DNA from: Amycolatopsis marina
GTDB lineage: Bacteria; Actinomycetota; Actinomycetes; Mycobacteriales; Pseudonocardiaceae
Assembly (NCBI RefSeq): GCF_900111885.1
Contig: NZ_FOKG01000018.1
Location: 1-64,000, forward strand
DNA length: 64,000 nucleotides
Reading direction: 5' to 3'
Under the pieces are notes generated by a model. It was not told where the DNA came from and did no database searches. It was given only the letters and a program-made list of their open reading frames with translations. Position numbers and translations under genes: made by a program. Of the stretch, positions 3,494 to 51,604 are shown piece by piece. Every line of letters begins with the position of its first letter. The stretch's first letter is position 1.

Positions 3494-6400
3494 GAGGGGC
3501 CCACCGGCTCGGCGAGGAGTTCGAGTTGCGCCAGGCACAGCCGCGGGCCCGCGGTCGCCGTCACCCGCAGCCGGTAGTGCCGCACGGTCACGGGCTCGGC
3601 GATCCCGAACGCCCTGGTCTGCCGTCGCAGCCCGAAGGACTGGCCGACCCGCTCGTCCAGCACCGTCCAGGTCGTCCCGTCGGGCGAGCCCTCCAGTACC
3701 CAGGACCTCGGGTCGGCGTCCTGCCCGCCGGAGGTGAGCGTGTACATGCGGACGGGAGTCACCTGCCCGTCGATCGTGGCCTCGATGACCGGGTCGGGCA
3801 CCGAGAACCTGGCCTCGGTGGCGGTGGTGTCGTCCACGAGCGCCACGGGGTCGGTGCCGTCGGAGCAGTGGACGGTGGCGACGACGTCGGCGAGGGGTGA
3901 GGGCCATTCGCCGGTGGTGAGCGACGGCGGCACGTCCTCCTCCCCGGTGCCCCACGACGAGGGCTCCGGACCCATCTCGAAGTCGAGTACCGCGCCCTCG
4001 GCGAGAACCGTGTGGGGGATCGAGGTGGAGGTATGGGGTTCGCCGTTGACCTTCAGTCCTTGGACATAGATGTTGTCCGCGTTGTTCTCCGGTGCGTTGA
4101 TCACCAGGTCCTTGCCGCCGGGCAGGTGCACGGTGGCCTTGGTGAACAGCGGTGAGCCGATCGCATACTGCGCGCTGCCCACCGCCAGGGGATAGAACCC
4201 GAGTGCGCTGAAGATGTACCAGGCGGACATCTCCCCGTTGTCCTCGTCACCGGGGTACCCCTGACCGAGTTCGCTGCCGAGGTACAGCCGGGACAGGACC
4301 TCCCGCACCTTCTCCTGCGTCTTCGCCGGCTGCCCCGCGAAGTTGTACATGTAGGGGATGTGGTGCGAGGGCTGGTTGGAGTGCCCGTACTGACCCATCC
4401 GGACCGCACGGGCCTCGGACATCTCATGGATGACGGCGCCGTAGTCGCCGGGCTTGCCGCCGCGCTCCGGAGTGCTGAAGAAGCGGTCCAGCTTAGCGGC
4501 GAGCGCGGCCCGCCCGCCGTGCAACGCGGCGAGTCCCTGCCCGTCGTGCGGGACGGTGAACGCGGTGTTCCAGCCGTTGGTCTCGGTGTAGTCGGGGCCC
4601 CAGTGTGCCGGGTCGTAGTGCTCGGCAGGCTCTCGCCAGTTTCCGTCGGCGGTGCGGCCGCGGAAGAACCCGGTCCGGCTGTCGAAGTGGTGCGCGTAGT
4701 GCAGCGCACGGTTGCGGAAGTACTCCGCGTTGTCGCGGAACTCCGCCCGCCGCGGATCGCCGGGATCGGCCTGTTCATACAGTGTCTGCGACCAGTTCGC
4801 GAGGCCGAAGTCGTTGACGCAGCCGTCCAGTGCCCACGACAGTCCCTCCTTCGTTGTCGTGGGCGTGAAGCCGAGGAAGATCGACTCGGCGAGTCCCTTG
4901 CGGCCGACCCCACGATGCGGCGGAGTCACCGTCGCGTTGCGTACGGCCGCGTCGTACGCCCCGAGTACGTCGAATCCATGCACACCTTTCAGATACGCGT
5001 CGGCGAACGCCACGTCGGAACTGGTCCCGGTCATCAGGTCGGCGTAACCAGGAGAGGACCAGCGTGGGATCCAACCCGCCTCCCGGTAGTGCTGGACGAA
5101 CCCGTCGATCAGCTCTCCCGCCTGCTCCGGTGCGAACAGTGCGTAGGCGGGCCAGGTGGTGCGGCAGGTGTCCCAGAAACCGTTGTTGACGTAGATCTCA
5201 CCGTCGACGACCTTCGCGCCGGTTCGCTTGCGGGTACTCGGCCACCAGCGGCGCACGACGGGGCTGGCGTGGCGGGGAACGGGGTGCTGCGCGTCGCCGG
5301 TGTTCTCGTACGCGGAGTTGGGGTAGAGGAACAGCCGGTAGAGGTTGGCGTAGAAGGTCTGCCGCTGGTCCTGGCTCGCGCCCTCGATCTCGAACCGGCC
5401 CAGGATGTCCTGCCACTGCTGCCGCGCCCGGTCTTTCACCTCGTCGAACGTCACCGAGGCAGGCAACTCCAGATCGAGATTGTCCCGCGCCTGCCGGAGG
5501 CTGAGCAGCGACGTCGCGATGCGCAGCGTCACCACCGGACTGTCGAAGGCCAGGTATCCGGTGACGGTGCGCCACCACGGCCTGCGAATCCGCCCGCCTC
5601 CGGTCGCGGGACGGTCCACGGTGCCGTACACGTACATCCGGCGCGCGCCCGCGGACAGTCTGCTGCGCACCCAGGTGTGGCCGGACATCGTTCCGGTGGT
5701 CGGGTCGACCCTGAGCCCACCCCTGTTGCGAGCGTTGTCGAACAGGAGCCAGCCCTTCCCGTCGGGAAACGTGACTCGCAGCATCGCGGCGTGGTCGGTG
5801 GGCACCAACTCGGTCTCGATGCCGGAGGTGAACCGCACCGCGTAATGGTGCGGGCGGTCGGTTTCGTCGGAATGAAAGAAGGTCTGTGCCCTGCTGCGCC
5901 GCCCGTGGGTCACCGGTCCCGAGCCCGGCATGATCTGGAAGGTGTGCCGGTCGCCCATCCACGGGCTGGGCTGGTGGCTCACGGCGAATGCCTGGAGCGC
6001 GGGAAGGTTCTGCGTTGTGTTCGCCCTGTGGTACTCGTAGATCCAGTCCAGCGAGCCCGCGTCGGTCACCGGGGTCCAGAAGTTGAATCCGTGCGGCACC
6101 GCGGTGGCGGGAAAGGTGTTTCCCCTGGAGAACTGTCTGCTGGAGTGGCTGCCTCTGGTGGTGCGGATGTGGTCCACCGCAGCAGGACCGTCGGGTGACG
6201 GCCGGGCCGGGGCGATGCGGAGGTCGTCGAGCCAGCCGGTGAGTTCGTGGTCCCCCTCCGGCGCGTCGGTGGTGAGCACGATGGCACGGATCGATCGCCC
6301 AGCCGCCACGGCGCCGATCCGGCAGCGCACCAGATTCCACTGGTCGACCGAAAGGGACTTGGCGCTGCCCTGGGCGGCGGCCGTCAGGCCGAAGCCGTAC

Positions 6401-6750
6401 TGGTCCGTCGGCGACAGCTCCGCGAGCGTGCTGCCGTCGTCGAACTCCAGGTCGACGGCGACGAACGTGCTGCGGTAGGACGGCCACCCCGTCAGCTCCG
6501 GGAAGACCACGTAGGACAGTTCGCTGTCCTCGGCGACCGCGATGTCGACCGCGAACAGCCCGGCACGGGCCTGTCCTGCTGCCGATGTCGCATAGTGCAG
6601 CGCCCGGGTGCCGGTGAACCCGGCTCCTGTTCGTGCGGCAGGGGCGCGAACAGGGCCGGAGCCGACGTGTACCCGCAACCGGGAACCGGTGCCCGGCCGT
6701 GGCTCACCGTCCTCGAAGGAGCAGAAGAAGTCGGATTCCGTCGCGGTCAC
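3490..6750 (-). CDS. GH92 alpha-mannosidase with C-terminal F5/8 C domain, no visible signal peptide
   Basis: This 1086-residue protein belongs to glycoside hydrolase family 92, calcium-dependent exo-alpha-mannosidases. Seen here: an N-terminal beta-sandwich (about 1-190), the GH92 core entry HGFNFWTPVTDAGS, the acid-bearing DYTETNGWN segment, the SNQPSHHIPYMYN sugar-binding stretch, and GDEDNGEMSAWY with the base Asp residues. A discoidin-type domain (about 950-1086) follows. The GTG start has no strong ribosome site and no signal peptide. The N-terminus (SDFFCSFEDGEP) matches the mature start of the upstream paralogue (SFYSSFEAGEP). It lies 33 bp behind that paralogue, with which it shares nearly identical DNA over 327 and 127 bp. 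It may be cytoplasmic, or it may have lost its export signal. Confidence 0.92.
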   Translation of the reverse strand: MTATESDFFCSFEDGEPRPGTGSRLRVHVGSGPVRAPAARTGAGFTGTRALHYATSAAGQARAGLFAVDIAVAEDSELSYVVFPELTGWPSYRSTFVAVDLEFDDGSTLAELSPTDQYGFGLTAAAQGSAKSLSVDQWNLVRCRIGAVAAGRSIRAIVLTTDAPEGDHELTGWLDDLRIAPARPSPDGPAAVDHIRTTRGSHSSRQFSRGNTFPATAVPHGFNFWTPVTDAGSLDWIYEYHRANTTQNLPALQAFAVSHQPSPWMGDRHTFQIMPGSGPVTHGRRSRAQTFFHSDETDRPHHYAVRFTSGIETELVPTDHAAMLRVTFPDGKGWLLFDNARNRGGLRVDPTTGTMSGHTWVRSRLSAGARRMYVYGTVDRPATGGGRIRRPWWRTVTGYLAFDSPVVTLRIATSLLSLRQARDNLDLELPASVTFDEVKDRARQQWQDILGRFEIEGASQDQRQTFYANLYRLFLYPNSAYENTGDAQHPVPRHASPVVRRWWPSTRKRTGAKVVDGEIYVNNGFWDTCRTTWPAYALFAPEQAGELIDGFVQHYREAGWIPRWSSPGYADLMTGTSSDVAFADAYLKGVHGFDVLGAYDAAVRNATVTPPHRGVGRKGLAESIFLGFTPTTTKEGLSWALDGCVNDFGLANWSQTLYEQADPGDPRRAEFRDNAEYFRNRALHYAHHFDSRTGFFRGRTADGNWREPAEHYDPAHWGPDYTETNGWNTAFTVPHDGQGLAALHGGRAALAAKLDRFFSTPERGGKPGDYGAVIHEMSEARAVRMGQYGHSNQPSHHIPYMYNFAGQPAKTQEKVREVLSRLYLGSELGQGYPGDEDNGEMSAWYIFSALGFYPLAVGSAQYAIGSPLFTKATVHLPGGKDLVINAPENNADNIYVQGLKVNGEPHTSTSIPHTVLAEGAVLDFEMGPEPSSWGTGEEDVPPSLTTGEWPSPLADVVATVHCSDGTDPVALVDDTTATEARFSVPDPVIEATIDGQVTPVRMYTLTSGGQDADPRSWVLEGSPDGTTWTVLDERVGQSFGLRRQTRAFGIAEPVTVRHYRLRVTATAGPRLCLAQLELLAEPVGPS

Positions 6751-6783
6751 GGGCCCACGGTAATGGGGAGCACCTGCTCACGC

Positions 6784-9700
6784 TCACATCACCGCGCACT
6801 GGCCGGAGACCGGTCCGCGCACGGTGTTGTCCAGACCATGGTCGGAAGGCGCGGGCTCATTGCCGGAGCAGTTCAGCGGTCCCGTGAGGGTGGTCGCGGT
6901 GATCAGCGGTGCGTGGTTGCCGGTGAGTTCGACTGGGCCGGTCACCGTGGCCGCCTCGACGGCCGTCTCACCGGTGACCCCGGCGATCCGTACCGGGCCG
7001 GTGACCCGGGTGTGGTCGAGCACCACGGAATCAGCGCCGGTGGCCGTGACCGGGCCGTCGATGGAGCCGCCGTGCGAGAGCAGGGTCGCACCCGCGGTCA
7101 CGGTGACCGGTCCGCGGACGGTGGCGGCGTCGAGGCAGACCACACCTGCGTCGATGGTCAGCGGCCCGTCGTGGGTTCCGGTCACTGTGCGGCTGCAGGC
7201 CGGATCCGGCGTGCCCAGCAGCTCGATCTCCGCCAGTTCGGCGCTCCCGGCCGAGGTTCCGGTGATCTCCAGCCGGTAGTGGCTGAAACGACCTGGCCGC
7301 TCGACCCCGAAGGCCCTCGTGTGGTTTCGCCAGGTGAAGGTCTCCTCGGTCCGCTCGTCCACCGTGGTCCAGCGCTCACCGTCGTAGGAGCCGCTCAACA
7401 CCCAGCTCGTCGGATCGGCCTGCTGATCGGACGAGGTCAGCGTGTAGTGCGTGACCCTGCCGTCCGACCGGTCGAGGTCGTAGCGCACCCAGGGCCGGTC
7501 GCCGGGCAGGGCGGTTTCGGTGGCGGTGGTGTTGTCGAAGAGGGTGGTCACGTCGGCGCCCGCGCTCCCGGTCGCCGTCCCGTCGCCGGTCACGTCCCGC
7601 AGCGGGGCGGGCGGCGCGTCGCCCTTGGTGAGGGAAGGCGGCGCGTCCTTCTCGCCCGTCCCCCAGCTGGACGGTTCCGATCCCATGTCGAAGTCGAGCA
7701 CACCGCCCTCGGCGAGGACGTCGTGCTGCAGCGAGGTGGAGGTGTGCGTCTTGCCGTTGACCTTCAGTCCTTGGACATAGATGTTGTCCGCGTTGTTCTC
7801 CGGTGCGTTGATCACCAGGTCCTTGCCGCCGGGCAGGTGCACGGTGGCCTTGGTGAACAGCGGTGAGCCGATCGCATACTGCGCGCTGCCCACCGCCAGG
7901 GGATAGAACCCGAGTGCGCTGAAGATGTACCAGGCGGACATCTCCCCGTTGTCCTCGTCGCCGGGGTACCCCTGACCGAGTTCGCTGCCGAGGTACAGCC
8001 GGGACAGGACCTCCCGCACCTTCTCCTGCGTCTTCGCCGGCTGCCCCGCGAAGTTGTACATGTAGGGGATGTGGTGCGACGGCTGGTTGGAGTGGCCGTA
8101 CTGGCCCATGCGCACGTCGCGGGCCTCACGCATCTCGTGGATCACCCCGCCGTACGAGCCGGGGAACGTGGCGGTCTCGGGCGTACTGAAGAACTGGTCC
8201 AGCTTGCCTGCGAGCTCGGCCTCGCCGCCGTAGAGGTTGGCCAGCCCCTTGCCGTCCTGCGGCACGGTGAAGGCCATGTTCCAGCCGTTGGTCTCGGTGT
8301 AGTCGTGCCCCCAGACCCTCGGGTCGTACTTGTCGGCGGGCAGGCGCCACGAGCCGTCGGCGGCCCTGCCCTGGAAGAAGTCCGACTCGGCGTCGAACAT
8401 CGTGACGTAGTTCTGCGCCCTGCTGCGGAAGTACTCGTAGTTGTCCAGGTACTCCTGCCTGCGCGGGTCGTCCCGCGCGGACTCGTCGTAGAGCCGCTTC
8501 GACATGTTCGCGATGCCGTAGTCGTTGATGTAGCCCTCCAGTGCCCACGACATCCCCTCGTGTGTCGACGTCGGCGTGTACCCGAGGAAAATCGAGGTGT
8601 CGATGCCCTTGCGCCCGACGCTCGCGTCCGGTGGCGTCACCGACGCGTTCTTCAGCGCCGCGTCGTAGGCGGCCTGGACGTCGAAGTCCGTGATGCCCTT
8701 CAGATACGCGTCAGCGAACGCCACGTCGGAACTGGTGCCCACCATGAGGTTCGCGTAGCCCGGCGAGGACCAGCGGGAGATCCAGCCGCCGTCGCGGTAC
8801 TGCTGGACGAACCCGTCGATCAGCTCTCCCGCCTGCTCCGGTGCGAACAGTGCGTAGGCGGGCCAGGTGGTGCGGTAGGTGTCCCAGAAACCGTTGTTGA
8901 CGTAGATCTCACCGTCGACGACCTTCGCACCGGTCTCGGTCGGCGTGTCCGGGCCCGTTCTCGGTGCGACGGGACTGGCGTACCGGTATCGGGGGGTGGT
9001 GGCGGTCCCGGTGTTCTCGTATCCGGAGTTCGGGTAGAGGAACAGCCGGTACAGGTTGGAGTAGAGCGTGGTGAGCTGGTCGGGTGTGGCGCCTTCGACC
9101 TCGATGACGCCCAGTGTGTCGTCCCACTGTGCCTGCGCGGCGTCGCGGACGCTCTCCAAGGTGGCGTCCTGGGCGATCTCCAGCTCGAGGTTCCTCCTCG
9201 CCTGCTCCACGCTGAGCAGCGAGGTGGCGATGCGCATGGTCACTGTCCTGGACTCACCAGCGGCGAACCGCAGGTACCCGCGCACGTTGTCCCGGCCCGC
9301 GCCGGGCAGTTCGCCGCCGGCTTCGACCGGCTTGTCGAAGGTGGCGTACACGAACAGCCTGCCCGCGCCCGCCGACAGTCCACTGCGGACGTCGGAGTAG
9401 CCGGTGAGCGTCCCGTTCTCGGTGTCGAGAGTGAGGCCGCCGTTGTTGTTGACGTTGTCGAAGATCAGGTTGCTGTCCGCTCCGGGGAAGGTGAAGCGGA
9501 ACAGTGCCGCATGGTCGGTGGGAGCGATCTCGGTGCGCAGGCCGTTGTCGAACTCGACGCCGTAGTAGTGCGCCTGTGCGGTCTCCTTGTCGTGGCCGAA
9601 CGGGAGTTCCCGCGCCTCCCGGTCCGCGTCGGGGATCCCACTCGCGGCGGACGGCATCACCTGGAAGGTCTGCCGGTCACCCATCCACGGGCTCGGTTCG

Positions 9701-11091
9701 TGGCTGACCGAGAACGCCTGCAGACTCGGGCGATTGTCGTCGTTGTTCGCTTCGTGGAAGCGGTACAGCCAGCTGGTGGAACTGGCGTCGGTCACCGGCG
9801 TCCAGAAGTTGAATCCGTGCGGCACCGCGGTGGCGGGGAAGTTGTTGCCCCGGGAGAAGGTGCTGTTGGACTGGGTGCCCCTGGTGGTCAGGACGTGCTC
9901 CGAGGGGCGGGCATGGTCCGGGGCTGGTGCCGCCGCGGCCAGGGTGATGTCGTCGAACCAGCCCTTCAGGGAACCCGGGCCCGCAGGATTGTCGTAGCCG
10001 ATGAGGATGCGATCGACGGTCCTGCCCGCCGCGACCGTGCCGATGGCGGAGCGAACCAGGTTCCACTGGTTCACCGAGAGCGACTTGGCCGCGCCCTGAC
10101 CGCGGGGGGAGAGTTCGAAACCGTACTGGTCGGCCGCGCCGAGGTCGCTGAGATAGCTGCCGTCGGTGAACGCCAGATCGACGGCGACGTGGGTGCTGGG
10201 GTAGGCGAGGTCGTCGGTGATGAACTCGGGCAGGACCTTGTAGGACAGCTCCGTGTCGGCCGACACGGGGACGTCGACGTCGAAGACCTTGTTGTAGGAG
10301 TAGCCGTGGCCCTCGGTGGTATGGGTGCCGGAGTACCGCAGCGCCCTGGCTCCGGTGTATCCCGCGCGGGGTTTGCCGGTGTAGCTGCTACGTGGGCCGC
10401 CGCCTTCGTGGCTGCGCATGTTCGGCAGCGGGGGCGGGGCGGGGTCGTCGTTGGCGAGCAGCAGTTCGGCGAGCTGGAGCAGCGGCTCGCCGTGGTTGCG
10501 GGTGATCTCCAGCCGGTAGTGCGTGAAGGGCTGTGTCTCGGTGACCTCGAACTCCCTGGCCTCGAACCGTGCGCCGAAAGACTCGCCGGTGCGACTGTCG
10601 ATCTCGGTCCAGGTGGTGCCGTCGGTGGACCCGCGCAGCGTCCAGTCCTGGGGATCGCGGCCCGGCGCGTCATTGGCGGAGGTCAGTCCGTAGCGGGTGA
10701 TGGTCGTTGGTTCGGACAGCGTGACCTCGACCCAGCCGGTGGGTTCCCACGCCAGCCACTTCGACTCGGCAGCGCCGTCCACGAGGTTCTCGGCGATCTC
10801 ACCGCCGCCGGTGTTCTCGTCGCTGGCGGTCACCTCGGTGACCCTGCCCCGGACGTCCCCCGGCACGTCTGTGGCATCGGTTCCGTTGACGCCCTCGGAC
10901 TTCTGTGCGCCGGAGGGCAGCGTCTCGACTGTGTCCACCCAGGTGGGCTCCGGCTCGCCCGCCTCGAAGGAGGAGTAGAAGCTGCCGCCTTCCTGGGCCA
11001 CGGCGACGGTGGTCGGCAAGGTGGCGAGTCCGGCGGACATGACAACGACGGACAGCAGCGTACAGACCGGAGGTCGGACACGTCGGAGCAT
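6784..11091 (-). CDS. Secreted GH92 alpha-mannosidase with two F5/8 C domains and a repeat tail
   Basis: I start this at ATG 11091, the beginning of a clear signal peptide (MLRRVRPPVC, hydrophobic core, AVAQ cleavage site), giving 1435 residues; the frame is open up to 11169. Domains in order: signal peptide 1-32, discoidin domain about 80-215, GH92 N-terminal sandwich about 235-395, GH92 catalytic region about 400-1130 (TETNGWN acid segment, SNQPSHHIPYMYN, GDEDNGEMSAWY), a second discoidin domain about 1170-1290, and a tail of about 130 residues with recurring GPVTVT / GPVRIAG / GPVELTG / GPLNCSG units. The tail looks like a short beta-helix. The enzyme is probably exported to trim alpha-mannans. 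A LacI-type operator lies about 80 bp upstream. Confidence 0.93.
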   Translation of the reverse strand: MLRRVRPPVCTLLSVVVMSAGLATLPTTVAVAQEGGSFYSSFEAGEPEPTWVDTVETLPSGAQKSEGVNGTDATDVPGDVRGRVTEVTASDENTGGGEIAENLVDGAAESKWLAWEPTGWVEVTLSEPTTITRYGLTSANDAPGRDPQDWTLRGSTDGTTWTEIDSRTGESFGARFEAREFEVTETQPFTHYRLEITRNHGEPLLQLAELLLANDDPAPPPLPNMRSHEGGGPRSSYTGKPRAGYTGARALRYSGTHTTEGHGYSYNKVFDVDVPVSADTELSYKVLPEFITDDLAYPSTHVAVDLAFTDGSYLSDLGAADQYGFELSPRGQGAAKSLSVNQWNLVRSAIGTVAAGRTVDRILIGYDNPAGPGSLKGWFDDITLAAAAPAPDHARPSEHVLTTRGTQSNSTFSRGNNFPATAVPHGFNFWTPVTDASSTSWLYRFHEANNDDNRPSLQAFSVSHEPSPWMGDRQTFQVMPSAASGIPDADREARELPFGHDKETAQAHYYGVEFDNGLRTEIAPTDHAALFRFTFPGADSNLIFDNVNNNGGLTLDTENGTLTGYSDVRSGLSAGAGRLFVYATFDKPVEAGGELPGAGRDNVRGYLRFAAGESRTVTMRIATSLLSVEQARRNLELEIAQDATLESVRDAAQAQWDDTLGVIEVEGATPDQLTTLYSNLYRLFLYPNSGYENTGTATTPRYRYASPVAPRTGPDTPTETGAKVVDGEIYVNNGFWDTYRTTWPAYALFAPEQAGELIDGFVQQYRDGGWISRWSSPGYANLMVGTSSDVAFADAYLKGITDFDVQAAYDAALKNASVTPPDASVGRKGIDTSIFLGYTPTSTHEGMSWALEGYINDYGIANMSKRLYDESARDDPRRQEYLDNYEYFRSRAQNYVTMFDAESDFFQGRAADGSWRLPADKYDPRVWGHDYTETNGWNMAFTVPQDGKGLANLYGGEAELAGKLDQFFSTPETATFPGSYGGVIHEMREARDVRMGQYGHSNQPSHHIPYMYNFAGQPAKTQEKVREVLSRLYLGSELGQGYPGDEDNGEMSAWYIFSALGFYPLAVGSAQYAIGSPLFTKATVHLPGGKDLVINAPENNADNIYVQGLKVNGKTHTSTSLQHDVLAEGGVLDFDMGSEPSSWGTGEKDAPPSLTKGDAPPAPLRDVTGDGTATGSAGADVTTLFDNTTATETALPGDRPWVRYDLDRSDGRVTHYTLTSSDQQADPTSWVLSGSYDGERWTTVDERTEETFTWRNHTRAFGVERPGRFSHYRLEITGTSAGSAELAEIELLGTPDPACSRTVTGTHDGPLTIDAGVVCLDAATVRGPVTVTAGATLLSHGGSIDGPVTATGADSVVLDHTRVTGPVRIAGVTGETAVEAATVTGPVELTGNHAPLITATTLTGPLNCSGNEPAPSDHGLDNTVRGPVSGQCAVM

Positions 11092-11185: not shown

Positions 11186-11279
11186 GAAAGTGGTCCGAAC
11201 CTGACCGAAATCGGACAACAAGCACTGCCCCGGTTGGCCGAAGTCCTGTCCATTCCCAGCGTGACCGTGGTTGGCGCGC

Positions 11280-11397
11280 CTGCAAGTACGCCCAAGCAAG
11301 ATCATTTACGCACCAACTGCTCCCAAGCCGCGCTGGCGACGGCCTCGACTCGGTGGTAGTTGCACGCGGTTTCGATCTTGCTCGGTGGTACTTGCAG
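11280..11397 (-). repeat. 118-bp palindromic element, copy 1
   Basis: The 24-bp terminal arms at 11280-11303 and 11374-11397 are inverted repeats with three mismatches. They start CTGCAAGTAC and end AGCAAGATC. The 70-bp centre resembles the reverse complement of copy 2 at 23872-23989 (shared GCGCGGCTTGG...AGCxGTTGG stretch), and both copies are exactly 118 bp. It lies 35 bp beyond the stop of the M20 peptidase gene, where its RNA could fold into a long hairpin. It has no coding capacity of its own. Confidence 0.8.
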
Positions 11398-11432
11398 ACA
11401 CTCCAAGCCCTGGAGGTGAACCGGCGTTGGCG

Positions 11433-23842: not shown

Positions 23843-23871
23843 TCCCGCCCTCCCGCACACGGTTGGTGCGT

Positions 23872-23989
23872 CTGCAAGTACTACCAAGCAAGATCGAGTA
23901 CCGCTTTTTCTGCCACCAACCAGGGTTCGAGGCGGCGCGGCTTGGTAGCGGTTGGCGACGGACTTGATCTTGCTTGGTAGTACTTGCAG
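23872..23989 (+). repeat. 118-bp palindromic element, copy 2
   Basis: Perfect 24-bp inverted arms at 23872-23895 and 23966-23989 (begin CTGCAAGTACTACC, end AGCAAGATC) enclose 70 bp. The centre holds inner inverted pieces (GCCACCAACC with GGTTGGCG). It has the same length and structure as the element at 11280-11397, which lies in the opposite orientation. It sits between the convergent stops of mptB and the PPOX gene, so it could end both transcripts. Confidence 0.85.
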
Positions 23990-24009
23990 CCAACCCAAGG
24001 TTGGACGGG

Positions 24010-49108: not shown

Positions 49109-50257
49109 TCAAACTGTGGTCTCCGGGCCGCCCGGATGGCGCAAATCACCGGGCTCGGGTACGTCACCCGCCTGGTCGAGCAGGGATCGGAGCCTGCTGT
49201 GCAGCGACTCGGTGGGATGGTCGAGGAGGTCTGTCAGCGCGGACCGCCAGCCCGTCAGTGTCGCGGTGGCCGTCGTTGAGCGTTCCCGTGTCGCTCCGAG
49301 TTCGCCGCTGAGCTCGGCGATGCGCTCGTGCAGCGCCGCGAGCTCGTCGGCGTGCGTGCGCGACAGCTCGCTTCGTTCGATGTCCCACCGGCCGCGGAGT
49401 TGGTCCAGTTCCGCTCGAAACGTGCCGTGGGCCTTTCGTTCTTGGGCGAGCTGCGCACGTGTGTCGTCCCGGTCGGATTCCAGACGGCGCAGCAGGTCCT
49501 GGTGGTGATTCTGCTGCGTGCGCAGGTCCGCCTGGTGCTGCTCCCGCAACTCGCGCACCGTCTCCTCGTGTCGTTGCCGGTTGGCCACGATGTGCTCGTC
49601 TAGCAGGTGCAGCCGGGTCTGTAGCTGTGAGTGTTCGGCGCGCAGGTCCGCCAATTCGCCGGCGACGAGTGCCGCCCGCTCCTCGGCGGCACCTTTGTCC
49701 TCCAGCGCACTCTGCCGCGCGCCATCCGCCCTCGCTCGGGCGATCTCGGCGTCCCGCGCGGCGTCCCGGGCTCGAGCTGCCTCTCGTTCGGCCTGCGCGC
49801 GGTGTTCCCGGTCTTCCGCCGCCGCGCGCTCGGCTGCCTGCACACGGAGTCGGTCCTGTTCCGCGGCTTCCTGCGCCTCCTGCTGGGCAAGTCGCGCGGC
49901 CGCCGCCTCTTCTCGCGCCCTGGCCGTTTCGGCCACCGCCGAGGTGTCGAGGGTGGCAAACCTTTCCTGTAGCGCCGCCACGGCTGCGAGCAGGGGAGTG
50001 GTGTGCTCGCTGAAGACCGTCTCCGCTTCCTGCCGCAGGAGGCGCAGCTCGTCGAGCACCGGGCCCGCTGTCGTCTCGGCGAGTTGGCGCCGTTGCCGGG
50101 ATGCCTGGTCGGCGTGCGCCTTCGAGCAGTACTTCTTTCCACCTTTCCGGTTCGGCGGGATCGGCGCGGAGCAGCCCTCCAGCAGGCAGATCGGCGATAT
50201 TTCCTCGCTGGTCTCCGGTGGAGATGGCACCGTGACAGGCGGGGCGTCTTCGGTCAT
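49109..50257 (-). CDS. Zinc-finger/coiled-coil protein, divergent from the recombinase
   Basis: 382 residues from ATG 50257. An N-terminal knuckle (C24LLEGC29 ... YC44SKAH48) resembles the RYCSxxCR zinc motifs found before DNA-binding helices. Residues about 55-345 are an almost unbroken coiled coil rich in Ala, Glu, Arg and Gln (ETAREEAAAARLAQQEAQ-like heptads). The layout of a small DNA-binding head plus a long coiled coil recalls KfrA-type plasmid segregation proteins, but the head is different. It shares a 210-bp regulatory gap with the recombinase. A recombinase accessory or partition role is inferred. Confidence 0.8.
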   Translation of the reverse strand: MTEDAPPVTVPSPPETSEEISPICLLEGCSAPIPPNRKGGKKYCSKAHADQASRQRRQLAETTAGPVLDELRLLRQEAETVFSEHTTPLLAAVAALQERFATLDTSAVAETARAREEAAAARLAQQEAQEAAEQDRLRVQAAERAAAEDREHRAQAEREAARARDAARDAEIARARADGARQSALEDKGAAEERAALVAGELADLRAEHSQLQTRLHLLDEHIVANRQRHEETVRELREQHQADLRTQQNHHQDLLRRLESDRDDTRAQLAQERKAHGTFRAELDQLRGRWDIERSELSRTHADELAALHERIAELSGELGATRERSTTATATLTGWRSALTDLLDHPTESLHSRLRSLLDQAGDVPEPGDLRHPGGPETTV

Positions 50258-50273
50258 GGCCTGAGCCTACTTG

Positions 50274-50312
50274 TCGCGTGCACGCGACGCGAGTTATTTA
50301 CTCGCGTCGCGT
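50274..50312. promoter_or_regulatory. Iterated ACGCGA palindromes between coiled-coil and recombinase genes
   Basis: A 14-bp palindrome TCGCGTGCACGCGA (50274-50287) runs into a perfect 13-bp inverted repeat, ACGCGACGCGAGT (50282-50294) and ACTCGCGTCGCGT (50300-50312), with a TATTT loop. A further ACGCGAG follows at 50314-50320. The block begins 17 bp from the coiled-coil start and could be its autoregulatory operator or a binding array for the zinc-finger protein. Confidence 0.7.
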
Positions 50313-50338
50313 AACGCGAGCAATAGTCCCCAAAGATT

Positions 50339-50366
50339 ACGGGTGATAATGACTGTTATCACCCGT
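50339..50366. other. dif-like 28-bp recombination site (11-6-11)
   Basis: Left arm ACGGGTGATAA (50339-50349), spacer TGACTG (50350-50355), right arm TTATCACCCGT (50356-50366). The arms are perfect 11-bp inverted repeats. Both the 11-6-11 geometry and the ATAA-N6-TTAT inner border match bacterial dif sites bound by XerC/XerD. Outer arm bases differ from chromosomal dif. It lies 101 bp before a tyrosine recombinase start. It could also be an operator for that gene. Confidence 0.6.
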
Positions 50367-50467
50367 TCTTCAAGTAGGATCATCGGGAGCGAGCCGGGCG
50401 ACGGGGTACGCGAGTACCGCCAGCGAGAGGCCGTGTGGAGGACCGTCGAAAACTGGGAGATCGTCAC

Positions 50468-51604
50468 GTGACGTTTTACGGCGAGGGCAAGGACACCGGA
50501 CGTGAACTGCAGCCGATGGCCGTCGGCCGGACTCAGGCGGCAGGTGTCGACGCCGGTGCGGCGGCCGAGCTTCTGCGTCTCGACGGCACCTCGGCGGTGC
50601 AACTGCTGCCCGCGTTGCCGCCACCGGACCGCTCGGACCGGTACCACCCGCGCGCACTGACCGTGCTCTGGCTTGTCGACGCCTCCGCCAACACCCGCCG
50701 CGGTTACTTTCGAGATCTCGCTGATTGGCTGGCGCACTGCGAGCGCAATGACCTCGATCCGCTCCAGGCGCGCCGACCGGACGTGGACGCCTGGAAAGCA
50801 GGCATGACGATCACCCGGCGCAGGCGTGACCCGGCGACGGGAACGACCAGTGAAACCAGTGAGTCAGCCGCTCCGGCGACCGTGTGCCGACGGCTGGCCG
50901 CGGTGTCGAGTTGGTACGAGTACCTGATCGGCAGCGACCTCGCCGTGCGCAATCCGGTCCGGGGAACGTCTCGGCCGAAGCCACCGGACTTCTCGCCGCT
51001 GCCCGCGTTGGCCACCGAACAGGTGGGGCGCTTCCTGGCCTTCCTGGACGAACGCGCGGTCACGCTCGCGACCGAGGTGCCGTTGCGCGAGGCCGCGCAG
51101 TTCCGGCTCATGTTCACCACTGGACTGCGGGTGGCGGCGGCGACATCAGTTCGGTTCGGCGATCTGACCGAGGAGGCCGGCCGGGCGGCGTTGCGATACA
51201 CGAAGAAGGGTGGCCAGAGCGATCTTGTTCCCTTGCCGGACGCCGTACTGCGAGCCTGCGAGCGGTACTGGAGTGTGCGTGCCGTTCGCGAGGGCGTCGC
51301 ACGCAATGATCTGTCCGGGCCGTTGTTCGTCTCGTTGCGGGGGAGCGCGTTGAAGCAGCGGGACCTGGATCGGCGCATCAGAGCGTTGTCGGTGGCGGCC
51401 GGACTGCCGGAGCTGACCGCGCACTCGACCCGGCGTTCGGCGGCTGAGGTGGCGTTGGCAGGCGGTGCGACGATCGAACAGATCCAGGACCTGCTCGGCC
51501 TTGCCGACATCCGGATCGCCCGCCGGTACGCCGCGAACAGCTACAAGATCACCGGCAGCCCCGCCTACACGATCGCGGACGCACTCGGTAGCGACAGGAA
51601 CTGA
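50468..51604 (+). CDS. Tyrosine recombinase (XerC/XerD-like)
   Basis: GGGAGA before GTG 50468 gives 378 residues; GTG 50435 is an alternative. An N-terminal SAM-like core-binding domain (about 65-165: NTRRGYFRDLADWLAHCE, RRLAAVSSWYEYL) precedes the catalytic domain. Visible residues: Arg221 (TTGLRV), Lys246/247 (TKKGGQSD), His319 and Arg322 (HSTRRSAAE), and nucleophile Tyr354 (ARRYAA). The position usually His or Trp is Leu345 (LLGLADI). No attachment tRNA or excisionase is nearby, which argues against a phage integrase. Confidence 0.92.
   Translation: MTFYGEGKDTGRELQPMAVGRTQAAGVDAGAAAELLRLDGTSAVQLLPALPPPDRSDRYHPRALTVLWLVDASANTRRGYFRDLADWLAHCERNDLDPLQARRPDVDAWKAGMTITRRRRDPATGTTSETSESAAPATVCRRLAAVSSWYEYLIGSDLAVRNPVRGTSRPKPPDFSPLPALATEQVGRFLAFLDERAVTLATEVPLREAAQFRLMFTTGLRVAAATSVRFGDLTEEAGRAALRYTKKGGQSDLVPLPDAVLRACERYWSVRAVREGVARNDLSGPLFVSLRGSALKQRDLDRRIRALSVAAGLPELTAHSTRRSAAEVALAGGATIEQIQDLLGLADIRIARRYAANSYKITGSPAYTIADALGSDRN

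Follow-up and report, generated by a model that had tools for sequence, protein, structure and literature searches.

Introduction

What could a 28-bp dif-like site, placed between a tyrosine recombinase gene and a divergent coiled-coil gene, be doing in the chromosome of Amycolatopsis marina? In the literature consulted, each chromosome is credited with a single system for resolving dimers, either XerCD with dif or a single-recombinase substitute. The stretch of DNA analysed here (the window) comprises 64,000 nucleotides at the start of contig 23, which measures 141,913 bases in a 7.0-Mb genome. An initial annotation, made from this stretch, had read the locus as a candidate self-contained recombination module. 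According to our comparisons, with a probability of about 0.6, the locus is a composite single-recombinase, TnpS/TnpT-like resolution system which was retained in the replication terminus beside XerCD/dif. Comparison of related sequences shows co-occurrence of site and recombinase, covariation of the arms, boxes at fixed spacing, adjacency of a helper gene, a terminus position, and coexistence with XerD-profile genes and dif. The features concerned are the following.

49109..50257, minus strand: zinc-finger/coiled-coil protein, proposed accessory (helper) protein, 382 aa, with N-terminal C-x4-C...YC-x3-H and a long coiled coil
50275..50286: proposed accessory box CGCGTGCACGCG, 68 nt left of the core's GTGATAAT
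50282..50312: perfect inverted repeat, 13+5+13 nt, overlapping the accessory region
50308..50318: proposed second accessory box CGCGTAACGCG, 35 nt left of the core's GTGATAAT
50339..50366: core site, proposed crossover, 28 bp, 11-6-11, ACGGGTGATAA-TGACTG-TTATCACCCGT, with arm covariation and related cores in 48/48 recombinase genomes
50468..51604, plus strand: tyrosine recombinase, 378 aa; frame open from GTG 50435 (389 aa); PF00589, 2.5e-22

Results

Core site and recombinase

The core was found where the initial annotation had placed it: both 11-nt arms are perfect, the spacer is 6 nt, and A+T content is 54%. The 64-kb window contains six perfect repeats with arms of 11 nt or more and a spacer of 4-10, against a mean of 0.33 and a maximum of 2 in 30 Markov shuffles, and none of the shuffled repeats reached the 50% A+T that the core exceeds. 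Two other repeats in the gap had been overlooked, namely the perfect repeat at 50282-50312, of which the right part alone is retained in the closest relative, and an outer 12-nt repeat pairing 50262-50273 with 50371-50382 at 92%.

For the recombinase gene, GTG 50468 is a likelier start than GTG 50435, because the sole start codon there in the frame of the closest relative is a matching GTG; the earlier figure of 101 bp between site and gene agrees with this start. The active site of tyrosine recombinases has the motif Arg, Lys, His-x-x-Arg, His/Trp and Tyr. Arg232, Lys258, His330, Arg333 and Tyr365 (numbering from 50435) are invariant in 19 relatives, and the His/Trp position holds Leu in the window enzyme and His in most relatives. 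The match to PF00589 and these invariant catalytic residues, save Leu at the His/Trp position, place the protein in the tyrosine recombinase superfamily. By the curated NCBIfam cut-offs it belongs to neither XerC (96 vs 335 bits) nor XerD (107.7 vs 329.6 bits). Its best PDB match is XerD (1a0p, 2.6e-12), and phage integrases give distant matches only. The nearest relative, which was the sole result of a genome-contig scan, is from Amycolatopsis palatopharyngis with 88% identity, and a dN of 0.077 with a dS of 0.78 between these two genomes indicates purifying selection.

No tRNA was detected in the window with ARAGORN, and the 8 neighbouring ORFs scanned contain no integrase, excisionase, plasmid or phage family, no transfer genes and no transposase. 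Within this scope the statement that phage genes, tRNA and excisionase are missing nearby holds, and the reading as integrase of a resident element was provisionally set aside, no such genes lying among the 8 neighbours scanned.

The site follows the recombinase

At E<=1e-60 the recombinase is present in 48 of 390 genomes of the family, one in each, distributed over 12 of 46 genera; since 342 of 390 genomes are without it at this threshold, the system is dispensable. Upstream of several relatives' recombinases there is a like core with different arms. A degenerate core pattern with up to one mismatch matched 83 of the 390 genomes, against 8/390 for a reversed-pattern control. Every one of the 48 genomes with the recombinase was among the 83, 41 by an exact match and 7 with a single mismatch, as were 35 of the remaining 342 (6 exact). 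The test is only partly independent because part of the 48 genomes were used to build the pattern. In an earlier search of 24 recombinase genomes, 23 matched the core with up to one mismatch and the control gave no match; the core was present once in each, except for two copies in G213. Among the exact sites outside the 48, those of G335 and G337 accompany a recombinase in two separate pieces, G333 and G334 are genomes of 82-83% completeness, and G083 and G297 are unexplained. At E<=1e-25 the recombinase was not found in G333, G334 or G083.

Arms of the core also vary together. Across 42 distinct cores, 84.6% of arm cells are paired, compared with 31-53% for slid arms; five arm pairs vary on both sides, and the covariation of 0.221 exceeds both the slid values (at most 0.097) and every one of 500 shuffles. 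The core table left out L140, a duplicate of L040, together with L128, L141, L142 and L143, whose genomes lack this recombinase. At the inner pair 7/22, 23 of the 42 cores show no pairing, and hence the two half-sites often differ.

The initial annotation had proposed to look for the site beside recombinase homologues, and with a core in 48/48 recombinase genomes and co-varying arms this check came out in its favour. It had also argued from symmetric arms to a one-recombinase system: a near-symmetric site does fit one recombinase, but perfect symmetry is not general, given the mismatched pair 7/22. The parts of the module, moreover, need not lie together: the recombinase is within 1.5 kb of the site in 10/42 tabulated genomes and the helper within 0.6 kb in 27/41.

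Two side observations concern such sites. The split recombinase genes with a core still present (genus g33) lie at 84232-89663 of contig 35 in G335 and at 19163-22900 of contig 31 in G337. Separately, a one-mismatch core match, GTGGTAATGACGGTTCTSAC, is found in multiple copies, away from the recombinase, in some of G086, G117, G118, G121, G126, G136, G160 and other genomes of genus g1, which we take to be Amycolatopsis.

Proposed helper gene and accessory boxes

Of 57 site loci, five of which are either a duplicate or from recombinase-negative genomes, 35 have a divergent long coiled-coil gene next to the site, and it starts between 169 bp left of the core and a slight overlap with the core. 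The helper gene of the window is under purifying selection (dN 0.188, dS 0.81 relative to the nearest relative). A profile of its zinc head (E<=1e-4) matches in 85/390 family genomes, including 44 of the 48 with recombinase; in the other four (G019, G211, G380, G381), another coiled-coil gene occupies the helper's place.

Between the helper gene and the core, boxes keep a fixed spacing though the surrounding sequence aligns poorly. The site, the recombinase and the divergent coiled-coil gene had all been listed by the initial annotation as parts of the module, but these boxes had been missed. In many loci the box patterns are CGCGYACGCG at -68 or -67 and CGACACGC at -40, and genus g22 loci have variants at -61 and -45. 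The exact box regex is positive in part of the loci and the remaining loci rest on alignment; some site loci gave no match to any box pattern.

The helper is also found by itself. Six genomes of the window's genus have the helper without this recombinase or site, but with a different recombinase. In eight genus g33 genomes (G330, G331, G332, G336, G338-G341) the helper is kept without the core pattern or this recombinase type, which suggests loss of the system with retention of the helper.

Position beside canonical dif

With an actinobacterial dif pattern, allowing up to 3 mismatches, a canonical dif match (2 mismatches) was found in the window genome at contig 23, 75541-75561, which is outside the window and 25 kb from the site. 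The reading of 50339-50366 as the genome's canonical dif is therefore rejected. Since the canonical dif is 25 kb away on the same contig, the module appears as a second system in the terminus, a position that was missed when the module was read locally.

The dif pattern was present in 30/30, 30/33 and 45/45 of the genomes searched. Distances between site and dif range from 6 to 166 kb, with a median of 31 kb, in the 43 of 48 recombinase genomes having both on the same contig; left out of this table were G207, G380, G381 and G386, with dif on another contig, and G208, with no dif hit. Recombinase and dif are 6-189 kb apart (42 genomes), helper and dif 6-75 kb (41 genomes), and the helper strand is opposite to the core in 41/41 genomes. 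The distance between dnaA and dif comes to about 0.35-0.5 genome lengths in 12 one- or two-contig genomes examined by hand.

Two further XerD-profile genes are present in 30/30 genomes tested, one of them over the curated XerD cut-off in 28/30; we take the second as XerC. Such recombinase genes need not lie close to dif, because XerD lies 0.44-4.2 Mb from dif in nine complete genomes inspected by hand.

Related recombinases in the order and on plasmids

A recombinase profile (E<=1e-50) matches 96/397 genomes of the order, including 67 of family f15 and 5 of family f16, in 29 and 3 of which dif was searched. The second dif set consisted of 45 genomes picked before dif was known, namely 40 that had a profile hit plus five, from the window's genus, whose match was weaker. 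In 41/41 of these further genomes with both on one contig (G086 included) a related recombinase lies 4-66 kb from dif; G104, G158, G453, G588 and G650, with recombinase and dif on different contigs, are not in this distance set, and for G667, which has two related genes, the nearer one (4 kb from dif) was counted and the other is 65 kb away.

These relatives bring other cores. In G172 the core CCGCGATAA-TCACGG-TTATCGCGG has an adjoining divergent coiled-coil gene, and the site is less symmetric in G179. Sites like TAGCTACARAA-GATACA-TTTTGTAGCTA lie about 0.6 kb from the different recombinase in 4/4 helper-only genomes examined (G086, G091, G108, G144), and sites like CAGATAA-AGGACG-TTATCTG occur in 3/3 f16 loci. 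At f15 recombinase loci the search for a core of this kind next to the gene gave none. A conserved CTGAGA...TCACATG stretch upstream of the recombinase genes in f15 has a start codon at its end and is not a claimed site, and AGTTGAGTC-N5-GACTCAACT repeats in f15 loci were dropped as sites, being presumably similar to heat-shock repressor sites.

Among 11 plasmid loci, whose recombinases have 28-35% identity to the window enzyme, an ATAA-N6-TTAT core lies near the recombinase in four (Micromonospora, Streptomyces and two Pseudomonas) and a divergent zinc/coiled-coil gene is present in three (Prauserella, Amycolatopsis, Streptosporangium); tblastn of the helper itself against plasmids gave no matches. 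Thus plasmid tyrosine recombinases of Actinomycetota and Pseudomonadota, for which resolution is a presumed function, share the core type or the divergent helper with the window module, and differ in being plasmid-borne, whereas the window module is chromosomal and near dif. In a tree of 75 recombinases, with long branches and some unsure placements, genus g1 rows stand in several separate places and plasmid rows stand among chromosomal ones. This suggests several acquisitions or exchanges, each apparently ending near dif.

The main rival reading is a relic or a selfish passenger: plasmids or phages entering at or near dif would have brought the module for their own multimer resolution, and its proximity to dif would be a landing bias. 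Like sites and helpers on plasmid relatives, the scattering of one genus's recombinases in the tree and the absence of the system from most of the family all agree with this, and mobile elements are known to enter chromosomes at dif (PMC5357621, PMC9765430). We nevertheless regard it as unlikely: neither plasmid nor phage families turned up in the 8 neighbours scanned, purifying selection acts on the genes, core and boxes are retained far from both genes, and there is as a rule one copy per genome. A resolution system retained in the terminus is the reading that we prefer.

Host XerC/XerD and the site

The core shares 11-6-11 geometry and ATAA...TTAT borders with the dif of XerC/XerD, and it could in principle be a second site of these host enzymes, with the neighbouring recombinase unrelated to it. 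In favour of this, another palindrome lies 0.27-1.0 kb from dif in 19/26 dif flanks examined. But the site tracks this recombinase and not the XerD-profile genes, which are in 30/30 tested genomes, and other recombinase lineages have other arms. Service of the core by XerC/XerD is thus quite improbable, and a dedicated recombinase in a second terminus system is preferred. As a system, the module differs from XerC/XerD with dif in that dif is a separate site 25 kb from the window core and the window recombinase stays under the XerC and XerD cut-offs.

The other palindrome is an observation in its own right. It is an 11-6-11 site with a consensus of about TTCATGCATAA-N6-TTATGCATGAA, located 0.27-1.0 kb from canonical dif in 14/20 and 5/6 flanks (L246, L247, L248, L250, L253, L254, L255, L257, L258, L259, L261-L264; G593, G578, G432, G658, G685). 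It is present also in genomes without the window's system, and was not found in the window's own genome.

Composite sites standing alone

In 12 genomes of one genus g1 clade, 13-48 kb separate the core from the helper, and its distance to the recombinase is 9-122 kb. Its sequence is kept in these stand-alone positions and the box region at the same place is still alignable, with the exact box CGCGATACGCG at -62 in 5/12 and changed versions in the rest. Site and boxes sit between divergent genes in the window, and Tn3 resolution sites contain promoters too (PMC7157771), but an operator that only autoregulates these genes, with no recombination at 50339-50366, is highly improbable and was set aside because composite sites stand alone in these 12 genomes, so far from both genes; plasmid recombinases of other phyla with similar ATAA-N6-TTAT cores nearby also speak against it.

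Comparison with known systems

TnpS/TnpT/rst of Tn4651-type Tn3 transposons, as presented in PMC7157771, resolves cointegrates with a core and accessory inverted repeats. Both this system and the window module consist of a tyrosine recombinase, a divergent coiled-coil protein, and core and accessory sites between them. Their proteins are distant: TnpS of pWW0 has only 26% identity to the window recombinase over 250 aa, the head of TnpT is KfrA_N (2.6e-26) whereas that of the window helper is a zinc head with no KfrA_N match, and BLASTP of TnpT against the window helper gave no match. Here we have assumed that two pWW0 genes, which the record calls site-specific integrase and DNA-binding protein, are tnpS and tnpT. 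In addition, TnpS/TnpT/rst is part of a Tn3-family transposon, and the 8 neighbouring ORFs scanned contain no transposase. With the different helper head, this led us to reject a Tn3 resolution module as such.

XerS/difSL, XerH/difH and XerL/dif each use one Xer-like recombinase with a dif-like terminus site often near the gene, and arms of XerL sites are uninterrupted, according to PMC5357621 and PMC9765430. A single-copy dif-like terminus site with a dedicated recombinase is common to them and to the window module. In the literature consulted, single-recombinase systems are described as substitutes for XerCD (PMC3025954, PMC5357621, PMC9765430, PMC7157771, PMC4210621), with one Lactobacillus having XerCD and XerS and no dif found (PMC3025954). 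XerS, XerH and XerL thus replace XerCD, whereas the window type coexists with XerD-profile genes and canonical dif in 30/30 genomes; it also has an additional helper with accessory boxes. We found no second dif-proximal single-recombinase system in actinomycetes in the literature, which is a weak negative as subscription papers are mostly outside the coverage.

Discussion

Binding, cleavage, the helper's role and dimer resolution may be pictured by analogy with TnpS/TnpT/rst and with XerS/XerH/XerL. In such a working, the XerD-like tyrosine recombinase would sit as a homodimer on the two arms of the 28-bp core and bring together two cores in direct repeat, such as those of a chromosome dimer, before strand exchange over the 6-bp spacer. 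The accessory boxes, which lie about 35-80 bp to the left of the core, would be bound by the zinc-finger/coiled-coil protein, which may limit recombination to correctly arranged (directly repeated) copies, a part also ascribed to TnpT beside TnpS. The whole would then serve as a second dimer- or terminus-resolution system, which may derive from plasmid-type resolution modules and have been kept near dif. Against this reading we count Leu at the His/Trp position, the helper-only genomes, f15 loci without a core, absence from most of the family and a possible landing bias at dif.

Genomes with this second module have XerD-profile genes and a canonical dif as well, and the module stays within some tens of kilobases of dif even when its parts have drifted or been swapped. 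There is an even chance that the terminus of many chromosomes of the window's order holds a second resolution system distinct from XerCD/dif that has a recombinase and a symmetric core of its own (in the window's family also a helper and boxes), and that this position was filled repeatedly by different plasmid-type modules, which would imply a terminus job beyond XerCD/dif alone. Coexistence near dif therefore makes it a testable question what the terminus needs beyond dif; filamentous multi-genome cells, FtsK action or resistance to dif-using elements may be involved, as a speculation. A further gain is a recombinase whose natural site is short and near-symmetric.

Elsewhere in the window, long inverted repeats at 11271-11406 and 23852-24009, 12.5 kb apart, have a common TGATCTTGCTTGGTAGTACTTGCAG-like sequence, and repeated blocks at 3568-10562, about 3.7 kb apart and 71-89% alike, resemble neighbouring copies of one large gene.
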